DNA from: Phycisphaerales bacterium
GTDB taxonomy: Bacteria > Planctomycetota > Phycisphaerae > Phycisphaerales > UBA1924
DNA length: 36,176 nucleotides
Assembly: GCA_020831775.1 (NCBI GenBank)
Contig: JAFIFZ010000011.1
Location: 1-36,176 of the forward strand
Direction: 5' to 3'
Shown: positions 8,296 to 23,267 of the stretch, one piece after another
How the letters are laid out: each line of letters starts with the position of its first letter
Position numbering within the stretch: the first letter of the stretch is position 1
Notes under the pieces: model-generated
Told to the model about the DNA's origin: nothing
Seen by the model: only the letters and a program-made list of their open reading frames with translations
The model's database searches: none
Translations under genes and position numbers: made by a program

Positions 8296-9357
8296 GTGCG
8301 GCCGGAAATCAGCGAGTCCCGCAGCATGACCCCACCAGCCACGATCGACCCGGACGCGTCGCCAAGACCGGTGCTCGACCAGCACCGACCGATCCTCGAC
8401 CGGCCTGTCCGGTTTTTCTTCGTCACCGGGGCGAGGCGGAGCGGGACGACCCTTCTTACCGCGATGCTCAACACCCACCCCGAGGCCTACTGCCGCAACG
8501 AAGGTTGGCTGGTGAACGGCTTCGGCTCGGGGGCGGAGTGCTGGATCGACCCCGAACGGTTCGGCGCATGGTGCTCGCACGGCGGGGCCGAGCACGGCTG
8601 GCTGCGGAACATCCCTGCCTCTGACGCGAGGATGATCGCGGCGAGGGGGGCGGTCGAGGCCCTGATGCGCGAAGCCGCGGCGAGAGAACCCTGGAAAAAC
8701 CCCGCCCGCGTCCGCGTCATCGGGGACAAGTCCGTCGAGCACTACTGCCACGGGGCCGAGACGCTCTGGCGGCTCTTCCCCGAGGCGAAGTACATCCACA
8801 TGCTGCGGGACGGGCGGGATGTGGCCGTCAGCGAGATGTTCCTGCGCTTTCGCCACGACGATTTCGAGGCGTTCGGGGCGGGGGCGGAGCAGGCAAGGCG
8901 GGCGAAGGAAGCGTGGTTTGGGGGGACCACTGGCGGGCGAGCCGCCGGCGCCACAGCGAACGAGCCTTTGTTCAACGACGACAGTTTGGCGGTGCTCGCC
9001 TCGTCGTGGGCATCTGCGGTGCGGTCGGCCCGCCAGGCCTCAGGGCTGTTCGGCGATCGGTACAGCGAGGTGAGGTACGAGGATCTTTTGCAGGGGGCGT
9101 CGCCACTGGCGGGGGTTCTGGACTTTCTCGGGGTGTCGGGCGACGACGCGCAGGCCGGGGCGTGCGCCGCCGAGGCCCGCTTCGAGCGCCACTCGGGCGG
9201 GCGGAAGCCCGGCGAGGAAGACCCGAGCTCGGACCTGCGGATGGGGGTGGCGGGGGACTGGAAGCGGTGCTTCACCGACCGGGACCGCGAGGTGTTCAGG
9301 GAAGCCGCGGGCGGGGTGCTCGCCGAGCTGGGCTACGAGACCGGCGGGGGCGGATAA
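8296..9357 (+). CDS. PAPS-dependent sulfotransferase
   Basis: This 353-residue protein would transfer a sulfuryl group from PAPS to an acceptor, probably a sugar given the neighbours. The 5'-phosphosulfate loop FFVTGARRSGTTLL is at about 41-54. The 3'-phosphate motif YIHMLRDGRDVAVSEM is at 166-181. The C-terminal GDWKRCFTDRDREVF then ELGYE is typical of the Sulfotransfer_3 type. GTG at 8296 is preferred for the GGAG 8 bases upstream; ATG at 8326 has none. Residues encoded at 8928-8955 (TGGRAAGAT) come from a palindromic repeat inserted in frame in a variable loop. The next gene starts 6 bases after the stop. Confidence 0.88.
   Translation: MRPEISESRSMTPPATIDPDASPRPVLDQHRPILDRPVRFFFVTGARRSGTTLLTAMLNTHPEAYCRNEGWLVNGFGSGAECWIDPERFGAWCSHGGAEHGWLRNIPASDARMIAARGAVEALMREAAAREPWKNPARVRVIGDKSVEHYCHGAETLWRLFPEAKYIHMLRDGRDVAVSEMFLRFRHDDFEAFGAGAEQARRAKEAWFGGTTGGRAAGATANEPLFNDDSLAVLASSWASAVRSARQASGLFGDRYSEVRYEDLLQGASPLAGVLDFLGVSGDDAQAGACAAEARFERHSGGRKPGEEDPSSDLRMGVAGDWKRCFTDRDREVFREAAGGVLAELGYETGGGG
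8928..8955 (-). repeat. Hairpin repeat copy inside the sulfotransferase gene
   Basis: The reverse complement of these 28 bases matches 29995-30022 (the hairpin after nuoD) at 25 positions, including GGCGGCT and GCCCGCCAGTG. It forms a stem CTGGCGG/CCGCCGG. It keeps the reading frame and encodes a small-residue loop between RRAKEAWFGG and ANEPLF. Confidence 0.55.
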
Positions 9358-9363
9358 GAGACC

Positions 9364-10254
9364 ATGGCGTCGAGCGCGACATCCATCGCCGGGGACGGTC
9401 GGGTTCGACGGCTGACGCCCGAGCCCACGGCGTGGTCGCACCTGCTGAGCCCGCTGGTGATGTTTCTCTCGCTCTGGTCGCACCGGAGCCTGATCCGGCA
9501 GTTCGCGGCGCGGGACATCCGGGGTCGGACGCGCGGGACGCGGATGGGCGTGTTCTGGTCGATCCTCGGCCCGATCCTGCAACTGGTTGTGTTCACGATC
9601 GTGTTCAGCACGGTGCTGGAGGGGCGACTGAGCGGTCGACCGGACGAGACCCGGATCGAGTTCGCCATCCTGCTCTTTGCCGGGCTGATGGTCTTCGGCA
9701 TCTTCGCCGATCCCCTGGGCCAGGCGCCGAACCTCGTGGTCGGGCGGCGGAACATGGTCAAGAGGGTCGTCTTCCCGCTTGAGATTCTCTCGGTCTCTTC
9801 GGTGCTGGCGGCGTTGTTCTATTCGTCGCTGGGCCTGCTGGTGGCGTGGCTGATCTGGGTGATCCACCAGGGCGAGGTGCACGCGACGGTGCTGCTGACG
9901 CCCATCGTGTTGCTGCCGGGGATCCTGTGTGTCCTGGGGCTCAGTTGGATCCTGGCCGCCCTGGGCGTGTTCGTGCGCGACCTGAACCAGGTCGTTGCGA
10001 TGTTTGTGCAGCGGCTGCTGTTCTTTGCGACGCCGATCTTCTACTCGCTGGAGATCGTGCCGGCGCAGTTCCGGATCGTCCTGTACTTCAACCCCATGAC
10101 GCCGGTCGTCGACGGCGTGCGGTCGGTGGCGATGTTCGGAGAGCAGCCGATGTGGTGGCTCCTGAACATCTGGCTGGTGGCCGGCGCCGTGCTGTGCATC
10201 GTTGGCTACGCCCTCTTCCAGCGCGCCCGCGGGGGGTTCGCCGATGTCATCTGA
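9364..10254 (+). CDS. ABC-2 type polysaccharide export permease (Wzm-like)
   Basis: This 296-residue membrane protein has about six hydrophobic segments. The N-terminal amphipathic region SLIRQFAARDIRGRTRGTRMGVFWSILGP is split over 51-80 and is typical of Wzm/TagG permeases (RDIKxRYxxSxLGxxW type). The family exports lipid-linked O-antigen, teichoic acid or capsule chains across the inner membrane with a Wzt/TagH ATPase. The ATPase gene follows and overlaps by 11 bases, which supports pairing. The ATG lies 6 bases after the sulfotransferase stop, so the genes form one operon. Confidence 0.92.
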   Translation: MASSATSIAGDGRVRRLTPEPTAWSHLLSPLVMFLSLWSHRSLIRQFAARDIRGRTRGTRMGVFWSILGPILQLVVFTIVFSTVLEGRLSGRPDETRIEFAILLFAGLMVFGIFADPLGQAPNLVVGRRNMVKRVVFPLEILSVSSVLAALFYSSLGLLVAWLIWVIHQGEVHATVLLTPIVLLPGILCVLGLSWILAALGVFVRDLNQVVAMFVQRLLFFATPIFYSLEIVPAQFRIVLYFNPMTPVVDGVRSVAMFGEQPMWWLLNIWLVAGAVLCIVGYALFQRARGGFADVI

Positions 10255-11662
10255 GGCGCAGCGCACCGATGTGGTCGGCGGGACGACGGGGATTGCCGCT
10301 GGTGTTGCGCGGGGTACCGCCCCGTCCCCGCTCGGGCCCGCGCCCGAGCTGGTGACCGACAACGGCGCCGACGCTCCGGACCGCGATGTCGTCCTCCGCG
10401 TGCGCGGGGTCGGCAAGTGCTACCAGATGTACGCCAAGCCGTCGGACCGCCTCCGCCAGAGCCTCCTGCGCTGGACGGGCAAGAAGTACCACAAAGATTT
10501 CTGGGCCCTGCAGGATGTCTCGTTCCGCTTGGAGAAGGGCGAGGCGCTGGGCATCATCGGGCGCAACGGCTCGGGCAAGAGCACGCTGATGCAGATCATC
10601 GCCGGCGTCCTCCGCCCGACCACCGGCGAGGTCGAGGTCCGCGGACGCGTCGCGGCGCTGCTCGAGCTCGGCGCTGGGTTCAACCCCGAATTCACGGGCC
10701 GCGAGAACGCGATGCTCTACGGCTCGATCCTCGGCATGCCCCGCAAGGAAGTCGAGAAGCGCTTCCCCGAGATCGAAGCGTTCGCGGCGATCGGCCACTT
10801 CATCGACCAGCCGGTCAAGACCTACTCCTCGGGCATGCTGGTGCGCCTGGCGTTCAGCGTGCAGGTGCAGCTCGAACCGGAGGTGCTCATCATCGACGAG
10901 GCGCTCTCGGTCGGCGACGCGGGCTTCAGGGCCAAGTGCCTCCGCCGGCTGGAGCTGCTCAGGGAGAAGGGCGTCACCCTCCTCCTGGTCACCCATGACA
11001 TGGGCGTCGTCCGCAAGTGGTGCGACAAGGCGATCCTGCTCGATGGCGGGCGCGTCGTCGACAGGGGCGACACCGCCAGCGTCGCGGCCGAGTACTACCG
11101 CATCGTCCAGGGGCTCGAACTCAGCGAGGCGCCGAAGCCCGACACCGGCGGGCCGGCGACCGAGACCTCCGGCGACGAGTTGGTCCCCGCCGTGGGGCTC
11201 GACCCGGGCAACCGCGCCGGCGACGGTCGCGCCAAGATCGTCGCGTTCAACATCTTCGACGCCGAGGGGCGGCCCGCGCGAGTCATCCGCTCGCGCGACG
11301 AGATCCGCGTCGACCTCCGCCTGCAGATCCTCGACGACCTTGAAGACGCCCAGGTCGGCGTCGTTCTCTGTGACAACAAAGGGCGGATGATCGTCGGGGC
11401 GCACACGATGTACGGCGAGCACGAATCCGTCGGCTGCCTCGCTGGGGCGAGGGCGGGCTCGACGATCCGTGTGTCGTTCAGTTTCCCTGTTGCCGCCAAC
11501 CCCGGCGAGTACCTGCTGATGGCGGGCGTCGCCGACCACACCGGGCCCCACCTCTGGTCTGACTGCGACATCGTGCACGATCTGTGCGAGGTCGAGGTGG
11601 TCGGCGAGCGGAGCTGGGGCGACGCCAATGTCGCTGCGAGGATCGATGCCCGCCCAGAGTGA
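10244..11662 (+). CDS. Polysaccharide ABC transporter ATPase with Wzt C-terminal domain
   Basis: The product is 472 residues from ATG 10244, which overlaps the permease stop; an in-frame ATG at 10202 lies inside the permease gene and is less likely. An N-terminal tail of about 50 residues precedes the nucleotide-binding domain. Walker A is GRNGSGKST (106-114), the ABC signature YSSGM (194-198), Walker B LIIDEA (215-220) and the switch His LLVTHDM. Residues from about 320 form a beta-rich Wzt_C-like domain with RVDLRLQILDD and DNKGRMIVGAHT. In E. coli O9a this domain binds the methylated or capped chain end. The next gene is a methyltransferase, as expected for such a system. Confidence 0.93.
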   Translation: MSSEAQRTDVVGGTTGIAAGVARGTAPSPLGPAPELVTDNGADAPDRDVVLRVRGVGKCYQMYAKPSDRLRQSLLRWTGKKYHKDFWALQDVSFRLEKGEALGIIGRNGSGKSTLMQIIAGVLRPTTGEVEVRGRVAALLELGAGFNPEFTGRENAMLYGSILGMPRKEVEKRFPEIEAFAAIGHFIDQPVKTYSSGMLVRLAFSVQVQLEPEVLIIDEALSVGDAGFRAKCLRRLELLREKGVTLLLVTHDMGVVRKWCDKAILLDGGRVVDRGDTASVAAEYYRIVQGLELSEAPKPDTGGPATETSGDELVPAVGLDPGNRAGDGRAKIVAFNIFDAEGRPARVIRSRDEIRVDLRLQILDDLEDAQVGVVLCDNKGRMIVGAHTMYGEHESVGCLAGARAGSTIRVSFSFPVAANPGEYLLMAGVADHTGPHLWSDCDIVHDLCEVEVVGERSWGDANVAARIDARPE

Positions 11663-13175
11663 ACAATCACCGGTGCAGGACGACCCCCACCAGAGCCCCC
11701 ACGAGGGCGCCCACCCAAGCCCCCCTCAGAGCGCAGACGCGTGCCTGGAGCGGATCGACCCCGCCGAGGCCGACCCCCACCTCGCGACCCAGCACCTGGC
11801 CCGCTACGCCTGGGCCGCCTCGCTCATGCCCGCCCCGCGCGTGCTCGATTGCGGGTGCGGGCTGGGCTACGGCTCGGCCATGCTCGCCGACGCCGGCGCG
11901 GGCGAGGTGCTCGGGATCGACATCGCTGCCGACGCGGTCGAGGAAGCCGCACGCCTGTATCCCCGCCCGGGCGTGACCCACCGCTGCGTCGACGCGATGA
12001 CGCTCGAAGTGGCGATGACATTGGATGGGGCCTCGGTCGGCAGGTTCGATGTGATCGTGTGTCTGGAAGTGATCGAGCATGTCGCCGAGCCGCAGAAGCT
12101 GCTCGATGTGCTCAAGTCGCTCCTTGCGCCCGGGGGCGTGCTGGCGGTCTCGTGCCCCGACGACGAGGCGATCGGCGTTGACAACCCGTTCCACATCTGG
12201 GAGGCCGGGCCCGACGACCTCGGGCGCTGGCTGCGGAGCCGGTTCGCGCATGTCAGCGAGCACGCCGAGCTGCACACGATGGGCACGGCGGTCCGCCCGA
12301 TGCCGATCGAGGAGGGCGTCTGGCAGGAGCTCCGCGCCCAGACGATGGGGACCGGTCGCGAGCAGGTGATCCCAGGGCGGCTGTTCCTGGCCGCGGACAC
12401 CCCCCTGCCCGCGATCCCGCCCCTGACCGTCCAACTCGCCGACGGGCTGGGGTATGTGCGAGATCTGCTGAGCGCCAAGGGCTGGCTGGACGCGAAGCTG
12501 GAGGAGCACCGGGGGCTGGTGGCGGACTTGGAAGCTTCGGCCGACGGGGCGATCGCCGAGCGCGACCGCCTCCGCGCCCGCGTCGACGAGCTGGAGCGCG
12601 AGAACGCCTACCTCAAGACCCGCGTCAACGACCTCCAGGCCTGGGCGGACCAGCAGACCGAACGCCTCGCCGAGGCCTGGAAGGCGAAGGAGGGGGTCGA
12701 CGCCGAGCTGAAGGCCCGCGACGAGATCGTCGAGGAGATGCGCCGCTGGGCCGAGGAGCAGACCGGGCGCGTGCAGGAGCTCTGGGAGGCCAAGACCTGG
12801 CTCGACGAGCAGCTCCGCGTCAAAACCGAACGCGTCGAGGGGCTGGAGGCGATCGCCGCCTCGCTCGGACAGCGGCTGGAAAACGAGGGTCGGCTCCTGC
12901 GCCGGTGGGCGGGCGAGCTTCTGGCCGAGAAGGTCCGCCTCGCGACCGAGCTGGAGCGTCGGTCGGGGAGCCCCGCCGGAAAACGGGCCTTCGGGCCCGG
13001 CGGGGCTAGAATCGCATCCACGAACGGAGAGGCCGGCGATGGGGGCAGCGCCGACTCACCAAAGTCGCCCAGAGGGGGCGCCGCAGACCGCCGCGGGCAA
13101 GAGCCCGCCCGACCCACACCGCCCGGTCCGCGCCAAACACAGAACCCGACCGAACCACGGGAGCCCGGCCCATGA
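11646..13175 (+). CDS. Methyltransferase with long C-terminal coiled coil (WbdD-like ruler candidate)
   Basis: The product is 509 residues. A class I SAM methyltransferase fills about 40-250, with motif I LDCGCGLGYG (67-76) and the post-motif VCLEVIEHV. From about 265 to 440 it is a charged heptad coiled coil. Two consecutive 35-residue units (332-366 and 367-401) share WAxxQTxR...ExWxAK...D, and a related half unit is at 276-296. E. coli WbdD couples a capping methyltransferase/kinase to a coiled-coil ruler beside wzm-wzt; here there is no kinase domain. ATG 11646 overlaps the ATPase stop; ATG 11628 is the alternative. The last 70 or so residues are low-complexity and may be translated spacer DNA. 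Confidence 0.82.
   Translation: MPAQSEQSPVQDDPHQSPHEGAHPSPPQSADACLERIDPAEADPHLATQHLARYAWAASLMPAPRVLDCGCGLGYGSAMLADAGAGEVLGIDIAADAVEEAARLYPRPGVTHRCVDAMTLEVAMTLDGASVGRFDVIVCLEVIEHVAEPQKLLDVLKSLLAPGGVLAVSCPDDEAIGVDNPFHIWEAGPDDLGRWLRSRFAHVSEHAELHTMGTAVRPMPIEEGVWQELRAQTMGTGREQVIPGRLFLAADTPLPAIPPLTVQLADGLGYVRDLLSAKGWLDAKLEEHRGLVADLEASADGAIAERDRLRARVDELERENAYLKTRVNDLQAWADQQTERLAEAWKAKEGVDAELKARDEIVEEMRRWAEEQTGRVQELWEAKTWLDEQLRVKTERVEGLEAIAASLGQRLENEGRLLRRWAGELLAEKVRLATELERRSGSPAGKRAFGPGGARIASTNGEAGDGGSADSPKSPRGGAADRRGQEPARPTPPGPRQTQNPTEPREPGP
12969..13012 (+). promoter_or_regulatory. Hairpin followed by a -10 box inside the 3' end of the methyltransferase gene
   Basis: AGCCCCGCCGG (12969-12979) pairs perfectly with CCGGCGGGGCT (12997-13007), with a further GGGCC/GGCCC pairing in the loop. 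TAGAAT (13007-13012) begins at the last base of the stem. GGAGAGG and a short 46-codon frame from 13039 follow. This looks like a terminator- or attenuator-like stem plus an internal promoter for the next glycosyltransferase. No U-tract follows the stem. Confidence 0.4.
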
Positions 13176-15883
13176 TTGATCCGCGCAGACCGGACTATGC
13201 CTGTACACCCGCGTCGGCCCACGCGCCGTCGTTCAGGTATCGTCCCGCGGACCCCACGCTGCCTCCTTTGGTGAGCGTGGTGACGCCGTTCTACAACGAG
13301 TCGGACGCCGAGCGTTTCGAGGAGACGGCCCGCTGCGTGCTCGGCCAGTCTCTGCAGCGCTTCGAGTGGATCATCGTCAATGACGGCTCGAACTGCCGGG
13401 CCGCCCTCGCTCTGCTTGAGCGGTTCAGGAACGGTCGGCGCGACCCCCGCGTCCGGGTCGTCGACCACGACGAGAACAGGGGCCTGCCGGCCGCACGCAA
13501 CACGGGCTATCGCGAGGCCTCGGCCGAGTTTGTCTTCCAGATCGACTCGGACGACCTGATCGAGCCCACGGCCATCGAGAAGTGCCTCTGGACGCTGACC
13601 TTCAGGCCCGACCTGGGCTTCTGCGGGGGCTACAGCGTCGGCTTCGGTGCCCAGGAGTACCTCTGGACCAGGGGCTTCCACGACGGGCCGGCCTTCCTCA
13701 AAGAGAACCTCGTCACCGCGACCAAGCTCGTCAGAAAGAGCGCGTGGAAGGCGGCCGGGGGCTTCGACGAGTCGATGCGGGGCGGCCTGGAAGACTGGGC
13801 CTTCTGGCTCGCCTGCGCCGATCGCGGCCTCTGGGGGCACACCATCCCCGAGTACCTCGACTGGTACCGCAGGCGGGAGAACCAGCACGACGACTGGGAG
13901 AACCTCGGGTGCGACCAACGCAACGCGCAGGTGCTTGCCGAGCTGCGCGACCGCCACCCGAAGCTCTTCGACGGCCCCTTCCCGACGCCGAGGCCCAAGG
14001 GCCACCCCCAGTGGGCCCACCAGCCCGGCCAGACCGCTTGGGCCAACCCCCTGGCCAAGGAGAAGCGCCGGCTGCTGATCGTCCTGCCCTGGCTGCGGCT
14101 GGGCGGGGCGGACAAGTTCAACCGCGACCTGCTCGACCAGATGACCCGCCAGGGCTGGGAAGTGACGGTCGCGACGACCAATGTCGCGCCGCACCCGTGG
14201 CTGAGCGAGTTCAGCTCGATCACGCCCGATGTCTTCCTGCTGGACCACCTCGCCCAGCCCCTGCACTACGCGACGATGCTGCGCGGGCTGATCGAGTCCA
14301 GGCGGCCCGATGTCGTGCTGATGAGCAACTCCGAGTTCGGCTACGCCGTGCTGCCCGCCCTGCGCTCGCTCTGCCCCGAGCCCGCCTATGTCGACTACTG
14401 CCACATGGAGGAGGAGCACTGGAAGTTCGGGGGCCACCCGCGCACGGCGGTCGGCGCCCAGAGCCAGCTCGAACTGAACATCACCTCGTCTGAGCATCTG
14501 AAGAACTGGATGATCGAGCGCGGGTCGGACCACTCGCGGATCGCCGTGGCCAACACCAACATCGATCCGGAGGTCTGGAAGCCCGACCCCGAGCTTCGGG
14601 CCGAGGTCCGGCGGAAGCTCGGCGTCGACGAGGGCACGACGGTGATCCTCTACGCCGGTCGGATCTGCCCGCAAAAGCAGCCGCTGGTCTTCGCCGAGAC
14701 GATGCGCCGCCTGAGGGACAAGGCGGTGAACAAGGGCAAGCGGTTCGTCGCCCTCGTCGCCGGCAGCGGCGAAGACGAGGCGGCCCTGGCCGAGCGACTC
14801 GCCGGCGACGGCATGCTCCAACGCGGCGAGCCGGGCGGCGAGGTCCGGTTGCTGGGCGAGACGATCAACGACGAGATGCGCGGGCTCATGGCCGCGGCCG
14901 ACATCTTCTTCATGCCCTCAGAGTGGGAGGGCATCGCGCTGGTGCTCTTTGAGTCGATGGCGACCGAGACCGTGTTTGTCGGCGCGGTCGTCGGCGGGCA
15001 GGTCGAGGTGCTGACGCCCGACTGCGGCGTGCTGCTCCCCAAGGCGAAGCCCGGACGCGAGCTGATCGACGAGCCCCCCGCCTACGCCGATCGGCTGATG
15101 GAGCTGATCGGCAACCCCGAGAAGCTGCGCGCCATGGCCAGGGCCGGACGCGAGCGGATCTGCAAGCACTACACGCTCGACGCGATGGGCGAGCGGATGG
15201 ACTCGCTGCTGAAGCGGGCGATCGAGCTGAAGCGTCGCGAGCCGAGATCGACGCTGCCGCCGGCCGCCGCGGTCGACCTCTTAGAGCGCGCGATCGAGAC
15301 CGACCGCCTGCAGCGATCGATCCACAACCTGTGGAACGAGCACCAGCGCGTCAAGGGACGCAACGCCGAGCTGCGCGCTCGGTTGCAGGAGGCGCGGGGG
15401 CGAGCGCAGGAGCTTGAGCGACGCCTTGCCCGCGTGGCGCCCAGCCCTGCAAAGCAGCTCGAAGCGATCGAGGCATCACGGGCGTGGGGGATGGTGCGGA
15501 AGTTCAAGAGCAACCCGGTCTACGCCGGATACGCCCGCGTGCGGTACGGCTCGTCATGGAGGGACCAGCTCGACAAGGGCTCACCCGCCCAGAGACTGGC
15601 ACGGATCCAAGGGGGCAAGGCGTACCGCCTGCTCAGCGCGCTCAAGGCGCTGCGCGGGCTCCCGCCCGTCGGCGGGCCGATGGGCGATATGGGCGGGTCG
15701 GGCCGCGAGCCTTCGCCGCGGAAGCGGGTCGAAAGAGAGCCGCGTGCGGAGCTGAACGGAGCGGTTTCGCAGCGACCGCTGCCAGAGCCGCAGCAGACGC
15801 CCGCCAAGCCCGCCCAAGAGGAGCGATCGGCGCCGCCCGTAGTGGTGCGTCAGAAGGACATGGCGTCGGGGCGGTCGCGGTAA
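13172..15883 (+). CDS. Bifunctional glycosyltransferase, GT2 then GT4, with coiled-coil tail
   Basis: The product is 903 residues. The N-terminal GT2/GT-A domain has SVVTPFYNES (35-44), IVNDGS (68-73), the metal/nucleotide motif DSDD (125-128) and the acceptor motif LEDW. From about 298 a GT4/GT-B domain starts at LLIVLPWLRLGGADKFN; it has the donor-site pair E586/E594 (EWEGIALVLFE). A coiled coil lies at about 710-765. The C-terminal 130 residues are Pro/Arg-rich and unrecognised. The ATG overlaps the methyltransferase stop (ATGA), indicating coupling. Two activities suggest it adds two different linkages of one repeat unit. The tail could dock on the ruler coiled coil upstream, which is speculation. 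Confidence 0.9.
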   Translation: MIDPRRPDYACTPASAHAPSFRYRPADPTLPPLVSVVTPFYNESDAERFEETARCVLGQSLQRFEWIIVNDGSNCRAALALLERFRNGRRDPRVRVVDHDENRGLPAARNTGYREASAEFVFQIDSDDLIEPTAIEKCLWTLTFRPDLGFCGGYSVGFGAQEYLWTRGFHDGPAFLKENLVTATKLVRKSAWKAAGGFDESMRGGLEDWAFWLACADRGLWGHTIPEYLDWYRRRENQHDDWENLGCDQRNAQVLAELRDRHPKLFDGPFPTPRPKGHPQWAHQPGQTAWANPLAKEKRRLLIVLPWLRLGGADKFNRDLLDQMTRQGWEVTVATTNVAPHPWLSEFSSITPDVFLLDHLAQPLHYATMLRGLIESRRPDVVLMSNSEFGYAVLPALRSLCPEPAYVDYCHMEEEHWKFGGHPRTAVGAQSQLELNITSSEHLKNWMIERGSDHSRIAVANTNIDPEVWKPDPELRAEVRRKLGVDEGTTVILYAGRICPQKQPLVFAETMRRLRDKAVNKGKRFVALVAGSGEDEAALAERLAGDGMLQRGEPGGEVRLLGETINDEMRGLMAAADIFFMPSEWEGIALVLFESMATETVFVGAVVGGQVEVLTPDCGVLLPKAKPGRELIDEPPAYADRLMELIGNPEKLRAMARAGRERICKHYTLDAMGERMDSLLKRAIELKRREPRSTLPPAAAVDLLERAIETDRLQRSIHNLWNEHQRVKGRNAELRARLQEARGRAQELERRLARVAPSPAKQLEAIEASRAWGMVRKFKSNPVYAGYARVRYGSSWRDQLDKGSPAQRLARIQGGKAYRLLSALKALRGLPPVGGPMGDMGGSGREPSPRKRVEREPRAELNGAVSQRPLPEPQQTPAKPAQEERSAPPVVVRQKDMASGRSR

Positions 15884-15900: not shown

Positions 15901-17958
15901 TCAGCCGCTCGCCTTGCGTGCCGAGGGCGCGGGCCCGGGTTGGCCGGCTTTCCTGCGGGCCTGCTCGCTCAGCGAGAGCGCGAGGCGGAAGGCCCTGTCC
16001 GGGCGCTCTGCGAGTGCGGGGTGGCGGGAGGCGAGCTCGGCGATGAGGTCGGCGTGCTTGGTGCTGTCGTTGTGCAGGCGTGAGCCGGGTCGCAGGCGGT
16101 AGCGCAGCAGGAACTCGGGCACGACCACGCCCTGCATCCCCAAGAGCGCCATGCGGCACCAGAGCTCCCAGTCCTCGTAGCCGGGCATCGTCGGGTCCCA
16201 GCCGCCGACCTCTTCGATCGCCTCGCGCCGGAAGAGGGCCGCGCTGGCGCCGCCGACATTGAAGCAGGTCAACAGGTCGCGATGGAGCCCCAGCGGCACC
16301 CACCCGGTCACGGGCTTGAGCGGGTCTTTGCGGAAGCTGGCGATCAGGGGCGTCGCGTACGACGCATCGGGGTTGCGCTCCAGCGCCGCTTCGAGCTTCT
16401 CGATTGCGTCGGGGGCGAGGAGGTCGTCGGCGTCGAGGGGGAAGACCAGGGGCGCGTCGGTCCGGGCGACGCCGGTGTTGCGGGCCGCGGCGACGCCCGC
16501 GTTGTCGGTGTGCAGAACCCGGAGAGGGAGGTGGTGCGTGTTGCGGCGAGCGGTCCGGTCCAGCCAGTCGAGGCTGGCGGGGTCGGTCGACCCGTCGTTG
16601 ACCAGGACGACCTCGTCGGGCTGGCGGGTCTGCCTGGCGAGGCTCGCGAGGGTCTGGTCGGTCAGCTCGCCCATGTTGAAGTACGGGATCACGACACAGA
16701 GTCGGCGCGGCGTGACGGTCGGCGCACGGCGCCGGGGCTCGGCGGGCTTGAGCAGCGGCGCGTAGGCGTCGAGGGCGCCGGCCGCCGCGGCTTGCGGGTC
16801 GGCGAGCTCGCGGGCCCGCGCGGGGCCGGCGGCGCTCAGCGCCGATTGCAGCTCGGTGTCTTCGATCAGCGTCTCGATCGCGTCGCGGAGGGCGCTTGCG
16901 TCGCCATTGGCGAAGAGGAGCCCGTGCTCGCGGTCGGCGATCATCTCGGGGATGCCGCCGGCGTCGGAGGCGATGACCGGCGTTGCAGCGCCCATCGCTT
17001 CGAGCACCGAGTACGGGAGATTGTCCCAGAGCGAGGGGGCGACGAGCGCCGTGGCGCGAGAGAGCAGGCGACGGACCGTCGGCGGGTCGACCGGGCCGAG
17101 GAAGACGAAGCGGTCGCGCCAGCGCCCGGGGATCTGCTTTGCGATGGTTTCGCGCATCGAGGTCCGCAGGGGTCCGGTGACCGAATCGGCCCCGGCCAGG
17201 AGCACGCTGAGATCGTGCCCCTTGTCGAGCAACTCGACGGCAGCCTGCACGAGCAGGTGCTGGCCTTTGAGGCGCTCGATCCGCCCGACACACAGGAGCA
17301 TCGTCGGGCCGTCGGCCCTGGGGGGCGCGGGCCTTGACGGAAAGGGGTTGGGCGTGACGGCTTCGGGCCGGCCCTCTCGGCGGACGCCGGGCAGGACGCG
17401 TTCGATTTCGGCGATCGCCGCGGCGCTGGGGGAGAGCAGGATGTCCGCCTCGGCGAGGACGGTCCGCTCCATGTGCTCGACGACGGCGTCGGACCGGTTG
17501 TACCACGAGCGCCCGTGCCGGTCGTACAGCACCGCCCCGGGCGTGTGGATCCGGACACTCAGCACGCAATCCTCGAAGAGCCCCATCGCCCGGCGGGCCC
17601 GGAAGAGGAAGTAGCCTTCGGCCCGGATGTCGGGCGTCTCGATGATGTCGAACCGGTGTTCGTCGTGCAGGGGTTTGAGCGCCTGATAAACGCTCATCGC
17701 CCGACGCATCGGTGGGCAGTGGTAGGCGGGGAAGGCGAACTCGCCCTCGGACGGGTCGTGGGTGTGGATGCGGACGCCGGGGAACAGCCGCTCGGCCCGG
17801 GAGTCCAGCTTCTGGTGGGGCGTGGTGAGCAGGTGGACCTCGGCGCCCGCGCCGGCGAGGGCCCGGGCCATGTGGGCGGCGTACACGCCCGCCCCGCCCC
17901 CAGAGAACGGGGCGAGTTCGGCCGAGACCAGACAGATTCGCGTCGGGCGGTCGTTCAA
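15901..17958 (-). CDS. Bifunctional glycosyltransferase, GT4 then GT2
   Basis: The product is 685 residues with domains in the reverse order of its convergent neighbour, whose stop lies 17 bases away. The N-terminal GT4 domain has ICLVSAELAPFSGGGAGVYA (8-27). Its donor-site region is PSLWDNLPYSVLEAMG, where Asp replaces the usual first Glu, as in some GT4 branches. The GT2 domain begins near 430 with VVIPYFNMGE and has DADD at 509-512 plus YEDWELWCRMA. The start is TTG: the frame shows no better initiator, and the TAGCCT box 7 bases upstream points to a leaderless TTG message. It probably builds the same glycan as the plus-strand operon. Confidence 0.88.
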   Translation of the reverse strand: MNDRPTRICLVSAELAPFSGGGAGVYAAHMARALAGAGAEVHLLTTPHQKLDSRAERLFPGVRIHTHDPSEGEFAFPAYHCPPMRRAMSVYQALKPLHDEHRFDIIETPDIRAEGYFLFRARRAMGLFEDCVLSVRIHTPGAVLYDRHGRSWYNRSDAVVEHMERTVLAEADILLSPSAAAIAEIERVLPGVRREGRPEAVTPNPFPSRPAPPRADGPTMLLCVGRIERLKGQHLLVQAAVELLDKGHDLSVLLAGADSVTGPLRTSMRETIAKQIPGRWRDRFVFLGPVDPPTVRRLLSRATALVAPSLWDNLPYSVLEAMGAATPVIASDAGGIPEMIADREHGLLFANGDASALRDAIETLIEDTELQSALSAAGPARARELADPQAAAAGALDAYAPLLKPAEPRRRAPTVTPRRLCVVIPYFNMGELTDQTLASLARQTRQPDEVVLVNDGSTDPASLDWLDRTARRNTHHLPLRVLHTDNAGVAAARNTGVARTDAPLVFPLDADDLLAPDAIEKLEAALERNPDASYATPLIASFRKDPLKPVTGWVPLGLHRDLLTCFNVGGASAALFRREAIEEVGGWDPTMPGYEDWELWCRMALLGMQGVVVPEFLLRYRLRPGSRLHNDSTKHADLIAELASRHPALAERPDRAFRLALSLSEQARRKAGQPGPAPSARKASG

Positions 17959-17971: not shown

Positions 17972-18004
17972 CCCGTCGGGGGTGAGTTGTGCCGGGGCGG
18001 GGAC

Positions 18005-18010: not shown

Positions 18011-18122
18011 CGAGACCCCGCGCCGTGAACGGCGTCGCGGGCCCGCCGACACCCTTTTTCGGGGATCATTCGGCCCGGTGCGATGCGTTCGGCTCGCGGG
18101 CCTTCCCGGAGGGACACCTGTG

Positions 18123-19856
18123 ATGAGAGACCGGTACGCAGCGCTGGCGCTGCCTTACATCCCGCGCCTGCTCCACCTGGTGGACATGAACCCGTACTCG
18201 AAGACCTACGGGAGCTTCGATCGGGCGTTCTGGCACTACCGGACGATGGACTTCCCGTGCGGGATGTCGCAGGAGTTCGTGCTGCCCCTGGCCCTGGTCT
18301 ACGCCAAGGAGTACCCGGGCAACACCTTCTGTGGGGTCGAGCGCCTGCGCGAGATCGCCGAGGGATCGCTCCGGTTCATGGCTTCGTCGAGCCACAAGGA
18401 CGGGACCTGCGACGACTACTTCCCGTTCGAGCGGGCGATGGGGGCGTTGGTCTTCAGCCTGTACGCCGGGTGCGAGGCGTACCGGGTGCTGAAGATGGAC
18501 GACCAGCGGGTCGCCGACTTGTTCACCAGGCGGATCCGCCACCTCGAGCACGAGAACGAGACGGGGCGGTTGAGCAACCACCAGGCGCTGGCCGCCCTCG
18601 CGGCGTTCAATGTCTACAGCGTCACCGGCGACGAGAAGGCGAAGAAGGTCGCCGAGGACCGCATCGCCCTGACCCTGAGCTGGCAGCATAAGGAGGAGGG
18701 GTGGTTCCAGGAGTACGAGGGGGCCGACCCGGGCTACCACACCTGCACGATCGACTTCCTCGCCAAGCTGCGCCAGAAGATGCGGCAAGCGAAGCACCCG
18801 GGCGCCGAGGAGCTCACCAAGCCGCTGGTCGACGCGGTGAAGTTCAGCTGGCACTTCATGCACCCCGACGGTTCGTACGGGGGCGAGTACGGCTCGCGCA
18901 ACACCTACCACTTCTACCCCCACGGGTTCGAGCTCCTGGCCCCCGACTGCGAGGAGGCGGGGCAGATCGCCGACGCCTTCCTCGCCGGGACCGAGCGCGA
19001 CAAGCGGTACCACAACGACGACGACCGCATGACGGCCCACTATGTCTACGACTTCCTCCAGGCGTGGGAGGACTACCACCCCGAGCGCCCCGCGCCGATC
19101 AACGAGAGCCGGCGCAAGCCCGAGACGCGGTACATGCCCGGGGCGAAGATCGCGGTCTCGTGGAACGGACGCGAGGCCGACAGCGAAAACAGCCGCGGAC
19201 GCTACACGGTCACCAACCTCTCCAAGGGCGGCGTGCTGAAGGTCTTCGACGCCCACGGCCCGATCGCCAGCGACACCGGTCTGATCGGCGAGCTTTCCGA
19301 CGGGACCGTCGTCGTCTCGCACCTCGTCCAGGACGACAACAAGGTGAGCGCCGACCCCGACCAGGGCAGGTTCAGCGTCGAGGGCGACCTGTGCAAGCGG
19401 CGCAACAACGGGATGACGGTCATCAAGCAGCTCATGCTCCGGGGCTGGGTGCTGGTGATCGGGCGGTTCAACGCCAATCTGACGCGTTCGATCGTGCAGA
19501 AGATCGCGATCACCGGCAAACCGAAGGCGGGGCACCGGTTCCGGCGCGACATCGAGATTCTCGATGACCGCGTCGTGGTCACCGACCGTGTGCCGGTGGG
19601 CACGCCCTTGAAGCGTCTGAGCGTCGGGAGCGACGCGACGAGCATCTATGTGGCCAACAGTCTGGTGTACCAGGAGTCGAGGCTCTGCCGCTGGCAGCAC
19701 GCGGATGTGGCGTCGCTGCCTGTCGAGGCGGGGATGCGTGTGTGGCGTCGCGAGTACTTCCGGGGCTCGGGGCACAGCCCGGGCGGCGGGCTGGACGAGG
19801 GGGCCGGCGCGGGATCGCAAACAAAGCGGCCGAAGCCCGAGGCGCTGCACGCTTGA
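18123..19856 (+). CDS. Heparinase/alginate-lyase-like or C5-epimerase-like alpha/alpha-toroid protein
   Basis: The product is 577 residues. No signal peptide is visible, so it is probably cytosolic. The first 350 or so residues are helix-rich with aromatic motifs (FWHYRTMDFPCGM, EYEGADPGYHTCTIDFL, and N260-Y262-H263-Y265-H267 in NTYHFYPHG). The rest looks beta-rich (SWNGREADSENSRGRYTVTN, VVVSHLVQDDN). This two-part pattern is that of polysaccharide lyases and uronyl C5-epimerases with a toroid plus beta-sandwich. I do not recognise the exact family. The ATG at 18123 follows a CGGAGGG ribosome site; an upstream extension to 17982 is unlikely. It heads a five-gene block of glycan genes. Confidence 0.55.
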   Translation: MRDRYAALALPYIPRLLHLVDMNPYSKTYGSFDRAFWHYRTMDFPCGMSQEFVLPLALVYAKEYPGNTFCGVERLREIAEGSLRFMASSSHKDGTCDDYFPFERAMGALVFSLYAGCEAYRVLKMDDQRVADLFTRRIRHLEHENETGRLSNHQALAALAAFNVYSVTGDEKAKKVAEDRIALTLSWQHKEEGWFQEYEGADPGYHTCTIDFLAKLRQKMRQAKHPGAEELTKPLVDAVKFSWHFMHPDGSYGGEYGSRNTYHFYPHGFELLAPDCEEAGQIADAFLAGTERDKRYHNDDDRMTAHYVYDFLQAWEDYHPERPAPINESRRKPETRYMPGAKIAVSWNGREADSENSRGRYTVTNLSKGGVLKVFDAHGPIASDTGLIGELSDGTVVVSHLVQDDNKVSADPDQGRFSVEGDLCKRRNNGMTVIKQLMLRGWVLVIGRFNANLTRSIVQKIAITGKPKAGHRFRRDIEILDDRVVVTDRVPVGTPLKRLSVGSDATSIYVANSLVYQESRLCRWQHADVASLPVEAGMRVWRREYFRGSGHSPGGGLDEGAGAGSQTKRPKPEALHA

Positions 19857-19917: not shown

Positions 19918-20661
19918 ATGAACGCAACAACCGAACAATCGACGCCCGCCGGCGTGATGGACGCGAGCTACGCGGAGGGTCGTCGAGCCAAGCCGCACCT
20001 CTCGTTCAGGTACAAGTCGCGGGCGCTCAACGCGTGCGACGCGTACCGGCGTTTCGGCCCGGGCGAGGCTTCGCCCCGTGTGCTCGACCTCGGTGCCGCC
20101 GAGGGCGCGACGATGGCCGAGGTGCATCGGATGCTCGGCGCATCAGAGTCGATCGGGATCGAGTACACGCAGGAACTGATCGACGCGTCGGGGCCGCTGC
20201 CCGAAGGGTGCAGGCTGGTCCGGGGGGATGTATCGGTCGAACACGAAGGGGTTGATCCCGCCTCGTTTCACCTTGTGACGGCCTTGGCGATCATCGAGCA
20301 TCTGAAAGACCCGGGGCTGATGATGGTGCAGGCGGCAAGGGCGCTCGTTCCCGGGGGCGTGTTCGTGGCGTCGTGCCCGGCGGGGACATGGGACGCGGTC
20401 AGCGGCAAGCTCGGCCTGCACAAGGACGAGCACCACGAGGACGCGATCAACCGCGCCAAGTTCGAGTCGTTGGCGCAGGGCGCCGGGCTGGAGTCGGTGC
20501 GGTACTGCCGTTTTATGTTCGCGCCCGTTGGTTTCCTGCCCTACCTTCGGCTGCCGGTGCCCGTCGGGCTTGCCGACGGCGTCGATCGGGCGTTGCGTCC
20601 TTTGAAGGTATTCGACCCGTTCTTTGTCAATCAGCTCTTTGTTGCGAGGAAGCCGGCGTGA
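19918..20661 (+). CDS. Class I SAM-dependent methyltransferase
   Basis: This 247-residue protein has the SAM-binding motif I VLDLGAAEG (55-63), an acidic post-I residue in SIGIEY, and ALAIIEHLKDPG with RALVPGGVF as later motifs (Methyltransf_11/12 type). The substrate is unknown; the context suggests a sugar or lipid intermediate. The start is the ATG at 19918, since the longer open frame overlaps the upstream gene and has no family similarity. It lies 61 bases after the lyase-like gene, and its stop overlaps the next start (GTGA). Confidence 0.88.
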   Translation: MNATTEQSTPAGVMDASYAEGRRAKPHLSFRYKSRALNACDAYRRFGPGEASPRVLDLGAAEGATMAEVHRMLGASESIGIEYTQELIDASGPLPEGCRLVRGDVSVEHEGVDPASFHLVTALAIIEHLKDPGLMMVQAARALVPGGVFVASCPAGTWDAVSGKLGLHKDEHHEDAINRAKFESLAQGAGLESVRYCRFMFAPVGFLPYLRLPVPVGLADGVDRALRPLKVFDPFFVNQLFVARKPA

Positions 20662-21350
20662 CCGGAGGGGCCGACCAAGCCGGACTGCAGCGGAGCTACT
20701 GGTCCAAGGACCAGAGCGGGCGTCGCTCGCCCGAGCACCCCGCGGTCCGTGCGCTCTTCGAGCCAAGGGCCGACTACCTCGCCTCGCTCGTGCCCGACGC
20801 TTCGAAGGCCTCGATCGTCGATGTGGGCTGCGGCAACGGGTACCTCACTTGGTGGTTGGAGCAGCGCTTCGGGCGCGTGGTGGGCGTGGACTACAGCCAG
20901 AGCATGCTCGACGCCAACCCGTGCAAAGAGAAGGTGTGCGCCTCGGCGAGCGAGCTGCCCTTCGAGGACGGGGCGTTCGACATCGCCGTCGAGAGCCACC
21001 TCCTGCACCACTTGGTCGAGGAAGACCGTCGCAAGTCGGTGCGTGAGCTGGCGCGTGTGGCGAAGGTCGCGGCGGTGCTCTACGAGCCCAACCGGAACAA
21101 CCCGCTGATGTTCGCCTTCGGCGCCCTCAAGCCCGAGGAGCGGATGTCGCTGAAGTTCAGCCCTGGCTATGTGCGCCGCCTGCTCGATGAGACCGGCTTC
21201 GAAGATCGCAAGGCCCGCGTCGAGGGGCTGATCGTGCCCAACAAAGCCCCCGCGGCGTGGTCGAAGATCGCGGGCACGCTGGAAAAATCACCCCTGCGTC
21301 GGCTGGGGTTCTACACGCGCGCCGTCGCGACGCGGGGAGGTTCGGCTTGA
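20658..21350 (+). CDS. Class I SAM-dependent methyltransferase
   Basis: The product is 230 residues from a GTG that overlaps the previous stop (GTGA, 20658-20661). Motif I is VDVGCGNGYLT (54-64), followed by VVGVDYSQSML and AVESHLLHHL (Methyltransf_11 type). The C-terminal half, with EPNRNNPLMFAFGALKPEER and the YVRRLLDETGF region, resembles methyltransferases found beside polyprenyl-phosphate glycosyltransferases. The acceptor cannot be read from the sequence. It is coupled downstream to a TTG-started GT2 by TTGA overlap. Confidence 0.88.
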   Translation: MTGGADQAGLQRSYWSKDQSGRRSPEHPAVRALFEPRADYLASLVPDASKASIVDVGCGNGYLTWWLEQRFGRVVGVDYSQSMLDANPCKEKVCASASELPFEDGAFDIAVESHLLHHLVEEDRRKSVRELARVAKVAAVLYEPNRNNPLMFAFGALKPEERMSLKFSPGYVRRLLDETGFEDRKARVEGLIVPNKAPAAWSKIAGTLEKSPLRRLGFYTRAVATRGGSA

Positions 21351-22267
21351 TCTCTGATCGCAGGCGTCATCTTGAAGTCGGTGTGAGCGTCGTCGTGCCC
21401 TGCTACAACGAGGAGGGCGCGGTCACCGAGACCGTCGAACGCGTCTCGGCGGCTTTGGACGAGATGGAGAACCATCCCGAGCAGCCCCTGCCCTCGGAGA
21501 TGCTCTTCGTCAACGACGGGAGCTCCGACCGCACGCTGGAGATCCTTAAGCGTCTCGAAAAAGACCACACCCGCCTCCGCGTCATCGACAACGGGGTCAA
21601 CTGCGGCTACGGCGCCTCGCTCAAGCGCGGGATCGCCCAGGCCAAGTACGACCGCATCGTCATCACCGACGCCGACGGCACCTACCCAAACGAGCGCATC
21701 GGCGAGTTCGCCCGCATGCTCGACGAGTGCGACATGGTGATCGGCGCCCGCACCGCCGAGAATGTGCACATCCCGCTGATCCGCCGGCCGGCCAAGTGGG
21801 CCCTGCTCAAGTATGCGAGGTTTATGAGCCGCGCCGACATCAAGGACATCAACTCCGGCCTGCGCGCGATCCGGACCGAGCATGTGCTGCGGTTCTGGTT
21901 CATGCTGCCCGACGCGTTCAGTTTCACGACGACGATCACGATGGCGATGCACGCCGCGAGGCTGCGGGTGGAGTACCCACCGATCGAGTACCACCAGCGT
22001 GTGGGGCGGAGCTCGATCAAGCCGGTGCGCGACACGCTTCGGTTCTTCTCGCTGGTGCTGCGGACCTCGATGTACTTCAAGCCGCTGCAGGTGTTCGGAA
22101 CGGTCGCGGTGGTGCTGCTCGTGGCGGCGGTGGCGATCGGCGTGAGCGTCAAGCTCATCACCGACCAGGTGCCGCAGGTCACGACGATGTCGCTCTTCTC
22201 GACCGGGATGATCTTCCTCGGCCTCGGGTTGATCGGCGACCTGATCAACGCGCGGCGGTCGGTGTAG
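21347..22267 (+). CDS. Polyprenyl-phosphate-type GT2 glycosyltransferase
   Basis: The product is 306 residues from a TTG at 21347, which overlaps the preceding stop and has GGAGG 6-10 bases upstream. GT2 motifs are VSVVVPCYNEE (13-23), LFVNDGSSD (53-61), NCGYGASLKRG (85-95) and the metal site TDADGTYP (107-114). Two hydrophobic segments at about 246-270 and 280-298 close the protein, as in DPM1/ArnC/GtrB-like enzymes that load a sugar onto undecaprenyl phosphate. The upstream open frame to 21257 lies inside the methyltransferase and is rejected. Its likely product would feed the GT-C enzymes at 23270-28545. Confidence 0.9.
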   Translation: MISDRRRHLEVGVSVVVPCYNEEGAVTETVERVSAALDEMENHPEQPLPSEMLFVNDGSSDRTLEILKRLEKDHTRLRVIDNGVNCGYGASLKRGIAQAKYDRIVITDADGTYPNERIGEFARMLDECDMVIGARTAENVHIPLIRRPAKWALLKYARFMSRADIKDINSGLRAIRTEHVLRFWFMLPDAFSFTTTITMAMHAARLRVEYPPIEYHQRVGRSSIKPVRDTLRFFSLVLRTSMYFKPLQVFGTVAVVLLVAAVAIGVSVKLITDQVPQVTTMSLFSTGMIFLGLGLIGDLINARRSV

Positions 22268-22271
22268 CCCG

Positions 22272-23267
22272 GTGGACACGGGCGGGAGGGCCCCGACGCC
22301 GGAGACCGGCCCCGCCCCCGGCGCAAAGCGCGGGCGGACGCTGAAGCTGGCGATCCCGTTTGTCGGGCTCGTTGTCGTGCTGGCGGTGCTCGTCAGCGTG
22401 ATCGATATTCGCGAAGCGCTGCGCGCGATCGCCGAGGCCGAACTGCCGTGGGTGGCGTTTGCGGCGGGGCTCGCGCTCGTGCTGGTGATGGTCAGCGCGC
22501 TACGGCTGCGGATTTTCTGCCTGGCCGCGGGTGAGCGGGTGGGCTATCGCCGGTGCTGGTCGGCGGTGATGGCGTCGCTGACGCTCAACGCGGTTTTGCC
22601 CGGGCGCGGCGGGGACTTTGTCAAGGCGTACTTCCTGGCCGACCGCAAGGGGCAGGGGGCGGTGCTGCTGGGCGTGACGCTGCTGGAGCGCGTGGTCGAT
22701 GTGCTGGTGCTTGCGGTCCTGGCGCTGATCGGGGCGCTGCACGCAGAGATGCACGGGGCGGCAGCGGCGGCGGCGATCGTCGCGTGCCTGCCGATCGGCG
22801 CGTTTCTCGCCCTCGGCTTTGCGCACCGCGTGCCTGTTGTCGGGGCGAAGCTGCAGCGGCTGGGCGTCGCGGCGCGGGGAGCGGCAAAGCGGCCGGGGCT
22901 GCTCGCCGGGGCGACACTGCTCGCGACGGTGTTCTGGGGGATCGTGGTGCTGATCGTCTGGTCGCTGTTGCGTGCGGTCGGGGCGGGCGTGCCCATCGAC
23001 GCCACGGCGGGCGCGACGCCTCTGGCCGTCTTGGTGGGCGTGCTGCCGCTGACGATCTCGGGCATCGGGACGCGGGACGGGATGCTTGTGCTGCTGCTGC
23101 GCGACTATGCGCCGGGCGAGCTGGTGTTCGCCGCGGGGTTGCTATATACCGCGATCTCGTACTGGATGCTGGCGGCGCTCGGGCTGGCGCTCCTGGGTCG
23201 CGAGACGCTTCGGAAGGCGGGGCGGGCGGATGCAGAGCAGGGTGCAGAGCCCCCGCCGATCGACTGA
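22272..23267 (+). CDS. Flippase-like integral membrane protein (LPG_synthase_TM family)
   Basis: This 331-residue, GTG-started protein has about eight hydrophobic segments. The family signature region SLTLNAVLPGRGGDFVKAYFL (split at about 97-117) is the N-x3-PG-x-GG-x2-x-K/R motif of the YbhN/AglD/MprF-N family. LPLTISGIGTRDGMLVLLL is the second conserved stretch. Family members are proposed lipid or lipid-linked-sugar translocases. The start lies 4 bases after the GT2 stop, so the pair is an operon. The stop is only 2 bases from the convergent membrane gene. Confidence 0.85.
   Translation: MDTGGRAPTPETGPAPGAKRGRTLKLAIPFVGLVVVLAVLVSVIDIREALRAIAEAELPWVAFAAGLALVLVMVSALRLRIFCLAAGERVGYRRCWSAVMASLTLNAVLPGRGGDFVKAYFLADRKGQGAVLLGVTLLERVVDVLVLAVLALIGALHAEMHGAAAAAAIVACLPIGAFLALGFAHRVPVVGAKLQRLGVAARGAAKRPGLLAGATLLATVFWGIVVLIVWSLLRAVGAGVPIDATAGATPLAVLVGVLPLTISGIGTRDGMLVLLLRDYAPGELVFAAGLLYTAISYWMLAALGLALLGRETLRKAGRADAEQGAEPPPID

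Follow-up and report, generated by a model that had tools for sequence, protein, structure and literature searches.

The gene described here encodes a protein of 577 amino acids that is predicted to adopt the fold of the heparinase II/III lyases and the DS-epimerases, and that appears to belong to an undescribed but widespread bacterial family. It lies in a window of 36,176 nucleotides (the whole stretch of DNA that was analysed), which is part of the 3.55-Mb genome of a Phycisphaerales bacterium. The computation supports the fold, the homology, the conservation of N152, H153 and Y205, the absence of the beta-domain His and metal loop, and the linkage to genes for a GT2 protein and an LPG_synthase_TM protein. 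The reading we prefer, with a probability of roughly 0.4, is that the protein is a cytosolic, membrane-facing uronyl-modifying enzyme that acts on a lipid-linked sugar. The fold class is of a known kind and so are heparinase-like proteins without apparent signal peptide, which carry PF07940; the new part would be the family without PF07940, the changes in its catalytic set, and its linkage to GT2 and the flippase. An exact-word search of the open-licence literature, with most subscription papers outside its range, found no description of these three.

The gene and its product

The plus-strand frame behaves as a gene, since differences from each of five relatives are most frequent at the third codon position (0.016/0.009/0.09 against L002, 0.052/0.033/0.17 against L012, 0.208/0.165/0.365 against L016, 0.278/0.234/0.442 against L018, and 0.211/0.151/0.605 against L013). 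The GC content of the three codon positions is 0.63/0.44/0.94. There is also an antisense ORF of 594 amino acids (18066-19850, minus strand), but its third position is position 1 of the plus frame, which is less variable. An in-frame GTG at 17982 would lengthen the protein by 47 residues. The absence of an export signal, noted in the original prediction, is supported: a hydrophobic 12-mer (Kyte-Doolittle mean >2.2) starting in residues 1-60 occurs in none of 104 related ORFs, by a crude 12-mer screen that is not SignalP and with some ORFs over-extended at the 5' end, and the earliest possible start codon of the relative L004 is at residue 1. The protein thus apparently has no signal peptide and would stay in the cell.

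Table 1. Features of the locus and the basis of each assignment (positions in the window).
Feature	Position	Strand	Basis
Toroid plus beta-sandwich protein gene	18123..19856	+	ORF from ATG to end of stop codon, 577 aa; codon-position test; homologues 38-98% identical (78-row alignment)
Predicted (alpha/alpha) toroid domain, residues 1-330	18123..19112	+	AlphaFold2, DSSP; VIA-align matches over 1-323
N152-H153, candidate catalytic Asn-His	18576..18581	+	Aligned to N174-H175 of a heparinase II/III protein
E197 to Y205 (Y205 candidate catalytic Tyr)	18711..18737	+	Aligned to E222 and Y227 of heparinase II/III protein L116
N260-Y262-H263-H267 cluster, core-family loop	18900..18923	+	Conservation
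Predicted beta-sandwich domain, residues 334-545	19122..19757	+	AlphaFold2, DSSP; alone pLDDT 87.9
K368, tight turn at the position of the superfamily's His-x-His-x-Asp loop	19224..19226	+	Conservation; alignment gap
Helical hairpin 433-463 within the beta-sandwich domain; may touch the membrane	19419..19511	+	DSSP
Class-I SAM methyltransferase MT1	19918..20661	+	PF13489; a homologue is present in the loci of 4 out of 7 relatives examined
SAM methyltransferase MT2	20658..21350	+	PF08241; 4-base overlap with MT1
GT2	21257..22267	+	PF00535; start uncertain (21257, 21347 or 21383)
LPG_synthase_TM (flippase-like) membrane protein	22272..23267	+	PF03706, TIGR00374

Extent of the family

The 577-residue protein matches no Pfam or NCBIfam family at E ≤ 1, in line with the earlier suspicion that its family could be new. 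PF07940 (Hepar_II_III_C) is likewise absent at E ≤ 1 among the 78 members of the family alignment A2, which has 68 invariant columns, and the 23 members of A3. A comparison with the glucuronyl C5-epimerase profile had been suggested as well and came out negative, PF06662 having no match in the protein, in A2 or A3 members, or in its own genome. The Pec_lyase profile PF09492 has no match in the protein itself at E ≤ 1; weak matches at that threshold occur in 23 of 78 A2 and 5 of 23 A3 members, and when 10 of those 23 A2 members were scanned singly, L092 lay above the Pec_lyase cut-off and two lay below. The L092 match (24.5 bits, cut-off 22) covers residues 205-258, or 54 of the profile's 292 residues. 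We read these weak matches as echoes of a common toroid, though the family may have a distant tie to PL10-type lyases. Sequence searches of the PDB returned noise or nothing.

Family relatives were found in 6 of 61 genomes, the own genome included (one of the six, G060, holds an apparently different toroid protein), and in 19 of 392 genomes, again counting the own, in a phylum-level search. Two peptide patterns, run over genome contigs, picked out 166 relatives, and the 80 that were kept come from Phycisphaerae, Opitutia, Kiritimatiellia, Verrucomicrobia, Sumerlaeota, Deltaproteobacteria/Myxococcales, one Rhodospirillales and many filamentous Cyanobacteria. The family as a whole spans Planctomycetota, Verrucomicrobiota, Sumerlaeota, Deltaproteobacteria/Myxococcales and Cyanobacteria, and the nearest named relatives of the window protein are in Phycisphaerales MAGs. 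One further relative, 36.8% identical and with no annotated feature beneath it, came from a plasmid collection. Five distant second paralogues (L109-L113) are 24-26% identical to L091, and the same genomes also hold a closer copy. Rows were left out as cut off or short (L014, L019, L049) or as duplicates (L001-L007, L009, L010, L114, apart from L006), and L102, L106, L107 and L108, which are short or weak, were removed before the 97-row profile was made. The match of L006 (E 1.8e-4) was set aside, this protein having by eye a prenyltransferase-type toroid look and a signal-like N-terminus.

Fold and homology to heparinase II/III

The original prediction of a lyase/epimerase-like toroid protein agrees with the AlphaFold2 model and with both structural searches, and the structure prediction proposed as its check returned a toroid plus a beta-sandwich. 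The model, built on alignment A2, has a mean pLDDT of 89.8 and a pTM of 0.91; its toroid helices run to about residue 316 and its beta strands from 334 to 545. The best Foldseek matches are PL15 3a0o (E 1.5e-9), 9o3q (a chondroitinase, labelled PL35), PL33 and DS-epi1 6hzn (8.1e-8), with TM-scores of 0.29-0.53 by query length over the 22 best rows, a modest range that we count against the preferred reading. VIA-align, near full length, places DS-epi1 6hzn (Z 20.5, rmsd 4.9, 458 aligned) beside 9o3q (Z 20.2, rmsd 6.2, 429 aligned) and 8khw (Z 19.9, rmsd 5.3, 426 aligned). The protein as modelled therefore has the heparinase II/III-DS-epimerase fold, a toroid followed by an antiparallel beta-sandwich. 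The beta domain alone is weak evidence, because unrelated glycosidases score 7.7-9.2 in VIA-align and a PL26 lyase tops the list with 11.3, next to 9.8 for PL33 and HepC, 9.5 for PL15, 9.2 for HepII and 9.1 for DS-epi1; Foldseek found no match for it at E ≤ 0.001 (best PL33, 2.5e-3). The hairpin inserted in this domain is modelled at lower confidence (73-83 in 10-residue blocks), and the most hydrophobic 19-mer falls in the hairpin region in 40 of 97 members, but not in the window protein.

Two rivals of the preferred reading draw on these fold matches. Most of the best whole-length matches are lyases, which speaks for a polysaccharide lyase of the cytosol that shortens or recycles uronate-containing chains ahead of export, or removes lipid-linked chains that were wrongly assembled, a reading we consider rather unlikely. 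Taken by itself, the toroid gives its best superpositions with cellobiose 2-epimerase and AGE enzymes (VIA-align Z about 25, about 300 aligned), as would suit another chemistry on a neutral lipid-linked sugar, by a hydrolase, transferase or isomerase comparable to the GH127, GH88 and AGE toroids; this too we regard as somewhat improbable.

Profile comparison bears on the second of these rivals. The target profile was made from 13 heparinase II/III proteins collected with PF07940 (30 loci, 14 ORFs translated, L124 left out), and the search against this family that had been suggested earlier returned a match: hhalign aligned the 97 family rows with a score of 114.0 (probability 97.9, E 3.1e-13), against 20.9 for a reversed control and 21.5-33.2 for 10 block shuffles; the profiles of two neighbouring genes scored 14.1 and 19.5. 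The match spans the toroid and the beta domain (126-488), with 305 columns at the default and 428 at a relaxed setting. Alignment A2 alone gave the weaker probabilities of 83.8 against set A4 and 40.3 against the PL12-like set A5, which count against the preferred reading, as do the L092 match and the near approach of other toroid families in thin profiles. Heparinase II/III targets of three sequences scored 42.8-66.3 in eight draws (seven distinct triples), against 24.6 for AGE, 36.6 for GH88 and 38.8 for Pec_lyase, although the control and rival-family profiles are thinner than the 13-protein profile. The AGE score, obtained with just three AGE sequences, is inside the control range; in structure, AGE enzymes match the toroid part only. 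Because Pec_lyase reaches 38.8 as a triple and 22.0-40.2 as four singles, toroid repeats alone can give about 40, and single-sequence comparisons with heparinase II/III (16.6-42.6) are no better than the Pec_lyase singles, so that only pooled profiles separate the two. Heparinase II/III is still favoured over Pec_lyase, since both the fold order and the pooled profile favour it, and the scores support homology to the heparinase II/III superfamily beyond chance.

Candidate active site

Conservation was counted over 86 core and 11 distant sequences. N152, E197, D202 and D300 are present in all 86 core and all 11 distant sequences, Y205 in 86 and 10, and H153 in 86 and 8; the three distant sequences in which H153 differs count against the preferred reading. 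In the alignment with heparinase II/III further pairs are formed by the HPDG motifs of both sides and by R475/D488 with the R..D motif, and the Asn and Tyr columns are also seen in solved heparinase III chains. N240, which we take to be the catalytic Asn of heparinase III, fits the aligned Asn column by count. The same holds for the Tyr column and Y294, the catalytic Tyr of heparinase III in PMC11848413. What the equivalent Tyr, His and Asn do in lyases and in DS-epi1 is described in PMC8006597 and PMC11848413. The active site had previously been sought in the N260-Y262-H263-H267 cluster, an assignment that the conservation does not support: N260 is invariant in the 78-row alignment but is kept in 84 of 86 core and 4 of 11 distant sequences, Y262 in 68, H263 in 44 (Asn in 40) and H267 in 78 of the 86 core sequences. 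By conservation and alignment with the superfamily's catalytic residues, N152, H153 and Y205 are the better catalytic candidates.

The beta domain presents a different picture. The AHAHAD (His-x-His-x-Asp) metal loop of the superfamily is an alignment gap in the family, and the model has at its position a short turn between strands 361-365 and 371-376, so the catalytic His and the metal loop of this domain appear to be missing. K368, in this turn, is found in 85 of 86 core and 4 of 11 distant sequences, D384 in 84 of 86 core, and H400 in 83 of 86 core and 1 of 11 distant sequences. H400 may be the equivalent of the AHNT His, although the alignment sets it four residues off. The Tyr of GTxxY is aligned to residue 390, where the 86 core sequences include 39 with Gln, 18 with Glu, 9 with Arg and 6 with Lys, and the second beta-domain Tyr (Y470 of PL33, Y473 of DS-epi1) thus seems not to be kept; the Ala mutant of Y473 in DS-epi1 is inactive according to PMC8006597. 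With no beta-domain His or metal loop, and with Gln or Glu in most cases in place of the second Tyr, the DS-epi1 triad would be incomplete in the family, which counts against the preferred reading, and neither known mechanism appears directly transferable when both this Tyr and the beta-domain His are missing.

These residues weigh differently on the rivals. The retained toroid Asn, His and Tyr suit a lyase, in which Y205 and H153 would abstract H5 and the C4-linked sugar would leave, a chemistry of doubtful standing here; the beta-domain His that lyases use (PMC11848413, in part) is the residue lost in the alignment gap. A beta-domain site rebuilt around K368, D384 and H400, together with the invariant acids E197, D202 and D300, fits the other chemistry on a neutral sugar, a reading against which the rival profiles described above, being thin, speak only tentatively. 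Since the beta domain lacks its catalytic and metal residues, the protein could also be a non-catalytic glycan-binding or chaperone subunit escorting the lipid-linked sugar from GT2 to the flippase; this is very unlikely, as N152, H153, E197, D202 and Y205, invariant in 86 of 86 core sequences, are hard to explain without catalysis.

Heparinase II/III proteins such as L116, L118 and L119, which by eye have no apparent signal peptide, share with the family the toroid N-H, E and Tyr, HPDG and R..D, and differ from it in being matched by PF07940 and in keeping the His-x-His-x-Asp loop (L119 has Gln in place of its second His) and a GTxxY-type Tyr. L115-L122, heparinase II/III proteins from other genomes of the phylum and the nearest relatives by profile, include several without obvious signal peptide by eye. 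The lyases of PL12, PL15, PL17, PL21, PL33, PL39 and PL35 are mostly secreted degraders; they are like the family in their toroid plus antiparallel beta-sheet fold and in the toroid Asn/His and Tyr, whereas the family has no apparent signal peptide, a biosynthetic context and no beta-domain His. The first six of these are grouped together in excerpts of PMC11848413. DS-epi1 is a human enzyme, while the 577-residue protein is bacterial and has no apparent export signal. His205 and Tyr261 of DS-epi1 (PMC8006597, in part) would correspond to H153 and Y205, through the superfamily and not by direct alignment; the family has a residue other than Tyr at 390, which aligns with the second Tyr, and it lacks the His loop.

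Gene neighbourhood

Directly downstream of one another in the window follow the toroid gene, MT1, MT2, GT2 and the flippase-like gene, besides which no PF03706 match was found in the own genome. Methyltransferase genes, MT1 among them, belong with GT2 and the flippase to the partners that recur near the toroid gene. GT2 has AglJ- and ArnC-type NCBIfam matches far below the cut-offs; because of these weak matches and its partners, we infer that it acts on polyprenyl phosphate, and it is probably of the polyprenyl-phosphate hexosyltransferase type.

The context was counted over 54 loci flanked by 2.5 kb or more on each side, taking partners within 5 kb on the same strand by clustering of flanking ORFs and HMM detection. 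GT2 is present in 33 loci, the flippase in 33, both in 24 and either in 42; narrowing the distance to 400 bases leaves GT2 in 20 loci, the flippase in 25 and both in 15. These loci are not independent, many of the cyanobacteria being close kin, and the flanking genes are our own ORF picks in often GC-rich DNA, some of which are wrong. Neither partner is found in 12 of the 54 loci (six cyanobacterial, five Sumerlaeota/Sumerlaeia, one other bacterium), and LPG_synthase_TM proteins are common, occurring in 11 of 14 control genomes; both points count against the preferred reading. In the Sumerlaeota loci L036 and L043 peptidyl-prolyl-isomerase-like, Maf-like and efflux-type genes were seen by eye instead of GT2 and the flippase. 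GT2 is adjacent to the distant paralogues L109-L113 in five of five cases. Among 10 hand-picked multi-TM neighbours, three match PMT_2 above the cut-off, and the rest match PMT_2, PMT or GT87 below it or have no such match.

Upstream of the toroid gene the window holds an ABC-export polysaccharide cluster of the Wzm/Wzt type. A sulfotransferase gene (8296-9357, plus strand) lies directly before an ABC-2 permease (9364-10254, plus) and a Wzt/TagH-like ATPase (10202-11662, plus), and these genes could possibly serve a sulfated exported polysaccharide. The adjoining gene (11628-13175, plus) gives methyltransferase-domain and then coiled-coil-like profile matches, a layout that presumably recalls WbdD-like chain-length terminators. 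Two large glycosyltransferase fusions of GT2 and GT1/GT4 type, in both orders, follow with their 3' ends facing (13172-15883, plus; 15901-17958, minus). The exporter and the sulfotransferase would suit the lyase reading, against which stand the recurrent partners, GT2 and the flippase-like gene, and the locus of G008, a genome of the same taxonomic family but another genus. In that locus an M17 peptidase gene, whose product is 61% identical to the window's M17 peptidase, lies directly before the toroid gene and the ABC cluster is lacking, which shows that the toroid gene is not always accompanied by the export cluster. Of the biosynthetic neighbourhood originally described, the biosynthetic character of the neighbours stands, whereas the link to the upstream export genes is weaker and the recurrent partners form a GT2/flippase module.

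A gene for making uronate was not found in the operon, which counts against uronyl modification; in the own genome, two matches to the N-domain of UDPG/MGDP dehydrogenases exceed the cut-off and make UDP-uronate plausible.

Proposed role

The uronyl-modifying enzyme that we prefer, acting on a polyprenyl-phosphate carrier, is suggested by the fold, the homology, the apparent lack of an export signal, the kept and missing residues and the gene partners in combination. GT2 would make a polyprenyl-phosphate-linked sugar at the inner leaflet, and the toroid enzyme, resting on the membrane via its inserted hairpin, would bind a uronyl residue of this lipid-linked sugar or of a short glycan. N152, perhaps with K368, might stabilise the enolate, with Y205 and H153 transferring the C5 proton, and the uronyl sugar would be epimerised (more likely) or beta-eliminated. 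Epimerisation is preferred over elimination because the gene partners build rather than degrade. The flippase-like protein, assuming that it is active on such a substrate, would carry the modified sugar across the membrane; a PMT-type GT-C, in some genomes, may then transfer it. The most specific form of this proposal, a cytosolic uronyl C5-epimerase with a rebuilt site (toroid Asn-His-Tyr plus a beta-turn Lys) working between GT2 and the flippase, we judge to be distinctly unlikely.

The Arn system offers an analogy. In PMC10632790, a transferase loads undecaprenyl phosphate, an enzyme modifies the sugar, a flippase moves it and another transferase uses it, with ArnD as a deformylase. The toroid enzyme would hold the place of ArnD between ArnC and ArnEF/ArnT; this is an analogy of role, not of descent, and the chemistry is another.

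Should the proposal hold, it would add a new step to the assembly of lipid-linked glycans in Cyanobacteria, Planctomycetota and other phyla, and a bacterial counterpart to polymer-level epimerisation. It would also mean that an enzyme of lyase fold has moved, in several phyla, from digesting to building acidic glycans on a membrane lipid carrier. The rebuilt active site would then be a place to ask what makes a lyase or an epimerase, a question touched on in parts of PMC8006597 and PMC11848413. Since its genes also occur in named cyanobacterial strains, the module is open to experimental test.
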